Source: a bacterium (GTDB lineage: Bacteria; JAJVIF01; JAGGVT01). From it: a DNA stretch of 28,525 nt. The position numbers were made by a program, and so were the translations under genes. A model generated the notes under the pieces. The model saw only the letters and a program-made list of their open reading frames with translations. It ran no database searches and was not told the DNA's origin. The DNA is taken from positions 1 through 28,525 of the forward strand of contig JAGGVT010000054.1 of NCBI GenBank assembly GCA_021157815.1, read 5' to 3'. Position 1 is the stretch's first letter; every line of letters starts with the position of its first letter. Below are positions 23,098 to 23,382 of this stretch, in pieces.

Positions 23098-23173
23098 ATT
23101 GAGTTTATTTTCCTTAAAAATCAGGCAAGATGCATAATCAGAAAAGCGTTGTTATTCCCATGTAACAAGATTC

Positions 23174-23332
23174 CGTCATTCCCGCGAAAGCGGGAATCCA
23201 TTTTTATCTTAAACAATACTATCGCACAGGTCTTTCCATTCCTGGTTGAAGTTTTCAATCAACTCAATCTTCCACGCATTGCCTAATATTCGAACCATAA
23301 GAAAATGGATTCCCGCTTTCGCGGGAATGACG
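23174..23332. repeat. Inverted pair of GTCATTCCCGCGAAAGCGGGAATCCA repeats
   Basis: The left copy lies at 23174-23204 and the right, inverted copy at 23299-23332. Each has the internal hairpin ATTCCCGC-GAAA-GCGGGAAT or its complement. This repeat type is scattered through many bacterial genomes. The 94 bases between the copies hold the GIY-YIG-like remnant listed next. It lies upstream of the lpxL-like gene. Confidence 0.85.
23209..23298 (-). pseudogene. Remnant resembling the C-terminus of a small GIY-YIG nuclease
   Basis: The minus strand between the two repeats reads MVRILGNAWKIELIENFNQE followed by WKDLCDSIV and a stop, 29 codons. From memory, the WKIELIE...NPEWKDLY pattern is the C-terminal end of short (about 90-100 residue) GIY-YIG endonucleases of the COG2827 type. 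The catalytic GIY-YIG half is absent, so it cannot be active. The frame continues upstream into the repeat without a stop. It may be the trace of a nuclease gene that was bounded by this repeat. The call rests on one short motif and needs a database search. Confidence 0.5.
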
Positions 23333-23382
23333 TGTTATTCTACCTGACATGCTATACACCTCTTAGTCATTTCGCTTGACTC

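Follow-up and report, generated by a model that had tools for sequence, protein, structure and literature searches.

Which enzyme moves the palindromic repeats that form both ends of a 159-bp unit in a bacterial contig? The unit occupies positions 23174–23332 of the window, i.e., the whole stretch of 28,525 nucleotides analyzed here (contig JAGGVT010000054.1 of assembly GCA_021157815.1). CGTC-type palindromes of this kind (GTCATTCCCGC..., GTCATGGCCGGG... and their relatives) are among the commonest repeats of bacterial genomes, and the published survey left their mover open. In that survey, CGTC REPs were defined by a CGTC or TGTC tag, a stem of 8–9 bp starting with AT, a loop of 4–5 bases, and a CCA tail, often in inverted pairs, and were reported in Bradyrhizobium, Neisseria, and other bacteria; no tyrosine transposase flanked by CGTC REPs was found, and the CGTC REPtrons were supposed to have been lost (Di Nocera et al. 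2013, PMC3733652).

A repeat-bounded remnant of a GIY-YIG nuclease gene

The ends of the unit are perfect 31-bp inverted repeats, identical at 31/31 bases (23174–23204 against 23302–23332), and each end contains an exact copy of GTCATTCCCGCGAAAGCGGG (23175–23194 on the plus strand and 23312–23331 on the minus strand; shuffle expectation, 0.02). Between them, just as the sequence-only reading of this locus had described, lies a minus-strand frame of 29 codons (MVRILGNAWKIELIENFNQEWKDLCDSIV), which runs from M at 23298 to its stop codon, TAA, at 23209–23211. The order of the parts on the minus strand is CGTC tag, hairpin, CCATTTT, short leader, 21 codons, TAA, and inverted end. In gene orientation, the 5′ terminal repeat (23302–23332, minus strand) consists of CGTC, the hairpin ATTCCCGC-GAAA-GCGGGAAT, and the tail CCATTTT, and the 3′ terminal repeat (23174–23204, plus strand) is the same CGTC-hairpin-CCA unit in inverted orientation, pointing inwards. 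The remaining leader, CTTATGGTTCGAATATTAGGCAATG (23276–23301, minus strand), extends as far as an internal-deletion junction at about 23276–23281, which was located in an alignment of 12 copies, and it matches the leader that precedes a 5′ half gene on contig C80 of the same genome. The C-terminal 21 codons of a GIY-YIG gene, WKIELIENFNQEWKDLCDSIV (23212–23274, minus strand), were assigned by homology to intact genes and by a clade HMM.

Copy comparison further delimited two outer tails. The 3′ tail GAATCTTGTTACATGGGAATAAC (23151–23173, minus strand) is a degenerate tandem unit that is also present beyond the 3′ end of other copies, and the 5′ tail GCATGTCAGGTAGAATAACA (23333–23352, minus strand) is related to the CAGGTCGAATAACC units found beyond the 5′ end of other copies. 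Degenerate tandem units of ~18–24 bp lie directly outside the element ends at these two window positions and at L036, L078, L095, L099–L101, L104, L110, and L148. In the host genome, the tails of the 5′ and 3′ sides are unlike each other and their polarity is mostly kept; in other genomes, the 3′ side is where most of the tandem units are found (at least three GAATGA downstream in 8 loci versus at least three TCATTC upstream in 1). An Rfam scan of the window identified one tRNA and no other match.

Several lines of evidence indicate that the enclosed frame encodes the C-terminus of a GIY-YIG nuclease, as the earlier reading had suspected. Aligned with L001 (contig C141), the intact homologue that the host genome carries, the remnant is identical at 11/21 positions (BLASTP E 5e-7, one comparison). 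Among all 1,058 window frames, the remnant scored highest against an HMM built from 91 intact homologues (22.0 bits, E 7e-6), compared to a top score of 9.1 bits for the same HMM on 20 shuffled windows. Six columns of this segment are invariant in the family (K, L, I, N, W, and D; ten diverse homologues), and all of them are kept in the remnant. The sequence-only reading had looked to Pfam PF01541 for confirmation, and this profile did not match the 29-residue peptide because the model ends at homologue residue 77 (of 95) and the remnant corresponds to residues 75–95. The intact homologue scored above the curated cut-off of PF01541 (64.7 bits, E 9.5e-18). At L098 and L108, the homologue reading frame extends into the 3′ repeat, and the protein ends in repeat-encoded residues such as WIPTSVGMT.

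Multiplied gene-less copies in the host genome

The 20-base palindrome was found at 107 places in the host genome with two mismatches or fewer and its reversed control at none, in agreement with the claim that the repeat is very widespread. A search with the window region recovered about a dozen related units in this genome, the best with 80–84% identity. At least nine copies (the window, L074–L080, and L082) have one internal-deletion junction in common, at which the leader ...TTCAAATATARGRCAATG is fused directly to ...TGGAAGATTGAGTTGATT, an outcome that nine separate gene decays would not yield. The outer flanks of the copies have no mutual similarity beyond 90 bp, which argues against segmental duplication. 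The earlier view of the locus as a decayed copy was correct in that a remnant of a GIY-YIG gene is present, but not in taking it for a single decayed gene; on the evidence of the aligned copies, the window unit is one copy of a multiplied, already gene-less derivative. Further copies carry other internal deletions (L036, L050, L081, L083, and L087). With bacterial MITEs, the unit has in common its inverted ends, its internal deletion, and the multiple dispersed copies of one derivative. Unlike MITEs, it ends in REP hairpins instead of IS ends. No direct repeat suggesting a target-site duplication was seen outside the ends of the unit, where the outer tails obscure the junctions.

The GIY-YIG/repeat family looks to be dying in the host genome, since the sole gene piece beside the window's repeat type, the 5′ half gene on contig C80 (L034), is truncated, being cut off by a different palindrome, and the one intact gene stands among related but different repeats. 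The surroundings of this intact gene (L001, contig C141) form a double-hairpin array (GTCATTCTGAACTTGATTCAGAATCC ... GGATTCCGGGTCAAGCCCGGAATGAC). A palindromic mini-element of ~130 bp (GGGGCTGTTGAAAAAG ... CTTTTTCAACAGCCCC) sits within the GTCATTCCCGCGAAAGCGGG palindrome at 10 places or more (L041–L050, L053, L075, L076, and L080), and the CGAAAG left on either side of it is a possible 6-base target duplication.

Inverted repeats around intact nuclease genes

The collection of intact homologues relied on protein sequence alone and covered 385 sampled genomes, 76 of which had a match. The flank test scored, for each gene, the best inverted match of the 120 bp upstream of its start to the 120 bp downstream of its stop and set this against the scores of control windows of equal size from other parts of the same loci. 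In the first sample (70 loci and 420 controls), the medians were 13.25 versus 7.5, and 40/70 genes exceeded every control. The second sample comprised 80 loci, the best of a larger set, from named genomes of Omnitrophota, candidate-phyla-radiation groups, Nitrospirota, Planctomycetes, Chloroflexi, Bacteroidota, Proteobacteria, and others; 75 of its genes entered the flank test, and 53/75 exceeded all 450 controls. The p-values of the two samples (1e-27 and 9e-28, respectively) are indicative, since the second sample was a selection of best loci, a few loci are common to both samples (L123 and L202 are one locus), and close relatives were counted without correction. The highest control was not exceeded by 30/70 genes in the first sample and 22/75 in the second, and in a distant sister group (UPF0213/YhbQ-like genes) the flank test was positive for only 4/20. 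Inverted bracketing of the enzyme gene beyond the level of other sequence, an organization like that of RAYT genes, was therefore found in both samples, and the enrichment that the sequence-only reading had predicted at intact genes was confirmed.

Among paralogues, L187 and L191, which belong to one genome, are similar in DNA from the GTC of one repeat to the GAC of the other and nowhere else. In L094 and L123, also from one genome, the similarity sets in at the GTC of the 5′ repeat and stops where the 3′ repeat begins. At the level of DNA comparison, the data show an association of nuclease and repeat as well as amplification.

Genomes were considered repeat-rich when they contained at least 10 GTCATTCC-N8-14-GGAATCC repeats, as was the case for 43 of the 385 sampled. 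A GIY-YIG gene was present in 27/43 repeat-rich genomes versus 49/342 others (odds ratio, 10; p 3e-11; the sampled genomes are not phylogenetically independent). The other 16/43 repeat-rich genomes had no GIY-YIG match at 1e-8.

Repeat architecture and nuclease clade

The repeats beside intact genes follow one plan, consisting of (C/T)GTC, a hairpin with an AT-initial stem, and CCA. The tag was CGTC or TGTC in 143/156 of these hairpins, and it is CGTC in the window copy; 157 hairpins were followed by CCA in 126 cases and by CTA in 17 (143/157 for either). Random windows with a hairpin amounted to 20/445. Stem pair 3 is TA, CG, AT, or GC, and stem pair 6 is CG, TA, or GC, with both sides altered in a compensatory manner; as the hairpin search demanded pairing, the independent evidence lies only in the variety of the pairs and in the CCA tail. 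The window repeat and the gene-side hairpins match CGTC REPs in the tag, the AT-initial stem of 8–9 bp, the loop of 4–5 bases, the CCA tail, and the frequent inverted pairs. In contrast to the survey, which found no enzyme, repeats of this type stand here on both sides of a GIY-YIG gene in many phyla.

Mapped on the nuclease tree, the repeat classes (CC-type, TTGCGA-type, and CTGA-type) required 11 changes versus 29.6 when shuffled, and 0/200 shuffles were as low. The nuclease motif K(A/G/S)GSR accompanies the TTGCGA class, and the motif found alongside the CTGA class is mostly KGW. A repeat class that tracks the nuclease clade is the pattern that a cognate enzyme-target pair would show; related genomes also share both by descent.

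Sites compared between genomes

The sample contained three other genomes of the host's own phylum, none close enough for an empty-site comparison, and no clean empty site for the unit was found at the Bradyrhizobium, Sinorhizobium, and Rhizobium plasmid sites. At one intergenic site of Bradyrhizobium, some species have the complete unit, G396 (L300) has one with an internal deletion, and other repeats are found elsewhere. Since the alternative alleles hold other repeats, there is no clean junction, and the site, as judged from its alleles, shows turnover without direction. Some GIY-YIG genes, e.g., in Bradyrhizobium, may be passed on stably without leaving their site. A supposed empty site between hflX and mazG of Sinorhizobium was rejected because the gene is present in both alleles and only the repeat copies differ. 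The GIY-YIG gene stands there (L264 and L265) amid several copies of a long mosaic palindrome that resembles RIME elements and whose copy number varies by strain. The Rhizobium plasmid sites had no empty allele. An origin from phages was also rejected, as two distant phage records were found and no more. PLSDB records of megabase size that are called plasmids (NZ_CP119140.1 and others; Neisseria, Aeromonas, and Sinorhizobium) look chromosomal.

A candidate mechanism and its alternatives

The locus probably derives from a mobile unit moved by an Ssn-like GIY-YIG nuclease, of which it would be a MITE/REPIN-like, non-autonomous copy. The complete mobile unit would be [CGTC-hairpin-CCA]-leader-GIY-YIG gene-[TGG-hairpin-GACG]. 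The small Ssn-like nuclease would recognize its own repeat in single-stranded form, folded into a hairpin that carries a GTC tag and a CCA tail, and would nick it where this strand becomes accessible, as in incoming DNA or at replication forks. Host repair or replication could then copy or join the nicked repeat, a repeat pair, or all the DNA between two inverted repeats into another place, and any segment with both ends could be spread in trans, whether or not it had lost the gene. To our knowledge, no GIY-YIG enzyme rejoins DNA, so insertion would have to come from host functions. The proposal that the nuclease mobilizes the repeat in parallel to RAYTs is supported by the enrichment at intact genes and by the finding that no RAYT-like gene of the host is bracketed by the repeat; that the GIY-YIG protein itself catalyzes the movement, via a single-strand nick-and-repair route, is what we infer. 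Ssn-like nucleases are likely the REPtron enzyme of CGTC repeats. On balance, we also favor the broader view that they are dedicated CGTC mobilizers, which would represent a second, independently evolved type of REPtron that cuts single-strand hairpins and moves mini-elements in trans.

Ssn is a single-strand nuclease that modulates transformation in Neisseria. A 2025 paper reportedly treats Ssn as a family of GIY-YIG single-strand nucleases acting on the Neisseria NTS repeat, with thousands of homologues. It is conceivable, but in our view unlikely, that nuclease and repeat serve in genome marking or the control of DNA uptake, the role described for Ssn/NTS in Neisseria, with the gene-side repeats as cutting or regulatory sites and the spread of the repeats achieved by other means. 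The homologue of N. gonorrhoeae (L263), which we take to be Ssn, is 60% identical over 91 residues and has the same repeat type nearby, and regulation or termination could be a further function of the hairpins found in the leader and after the stop, but a role in uptake leaves unexplained the gene-less copies (at least nine) with one junction, the two-sided inverted bracketing, and the paralogues that end at repeats. The repeats of the gonococcal homologue face outwards, opposite to most loci.

We consider it quite improbable that the repeats owe their movement to HUH/Y1 (RAYT-like) transposases and merely carry the GIY-YIG gene as a passenger or parasite. Y1_Tnp genes occur in 36/43 repeat-rich genomes versus 174/342 others (odds ratio, 5) and in 14 of the 16 repeat-rich genomes that have no GIY-YIG match, so Y1 transposases are not dismissible on co-occurrence alone; however, seven repeat-rich genomes have no Y1 gene, and five of these seven carry a GIY-YIG gene. 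The host genome contains nine Y1 genes, and none of them is bracketed by the window's repeat, for which reason they are disfavored as its mobilizers; a single one has such boxes nearby, on one side. Two are bracketed by a different inverted repeat of their own (AAAAGGGGACGGACAC type, e.g., L370) and the rest by none recognized, and the former provide an internal positive control for the bracketing method. The gene that the repeat does bracket is a GIY-YIG gene and not a tyrosine transposase of the HUH/Y1 type. Among 30 other Y1 genes, none had a box within 150 bp, and the 2013 survey, too, saw no CGTC-flanked tyrosine transposase (PMC3733652). The host Y1 genes L370 and L375 lie between inverted repeats of the GGGGACGG/GGGACAG type, and the palindrome by which the GIY-YIG gene of contig C80 (L034) is truncated belongs to a similar type; two repeat systems exist side by side in the host genome.

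A chance composite, in which a decayed gene with no relation to the repeat came to lie between two copies of it, given how abundant it is in the host genome, and further copies arose by segmental duplication, is hardly credible given the inverted bracketing above local controls, the copies with a common junction and without common outer flanks, and the repeat class that follows the nuclease tree.

Relation to known systems and implications

The unit resembles RAYT-REP systems (REPtrons and REPINs), where tagged hairpins likewise bracket one small gene in inverted orientation, many copies are gene-less, and the repeat type tracks the enzyme type. Unlike in those systems, the enzyme here is a GIY-YIG nuclease without kinship to HUH/Y1 tyrosine transposases. 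Compared with Ssn and the NTS/dRS3 repeats of Neisseria, the nuclease type and the repeat type agree with those found here; the differences are the repeat-bounded multiplying unit with gene-less derivatives in our loci and the reversed orientation of the gonococcal repeats. The accessible literature yielded no paper linking GIY-YIG with REPs; one Moraxella paper mentions GIY-YIG and RAYT. The pairing of nuclease and repeat itself is probably not new. As far as can be told, the present analysis adds gene-less derivatives that have multiplied, units that run from one repeat to the other, and a connection with CGTC REPs.

The occurrence of repeat-bracketed intact genes across many bacterial phyla makes the nuclease a candidate for the missing mobilizer of CGTC repeats. 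A small nuclease without kinship to the known REP transposases thereby becomes a concrete and testable candidate for their mover. If this is true, REP-type systems arose at least two times with unrelated enzymes, and a single-strand nuclease would be linked to the genome-wide spread of repeats.
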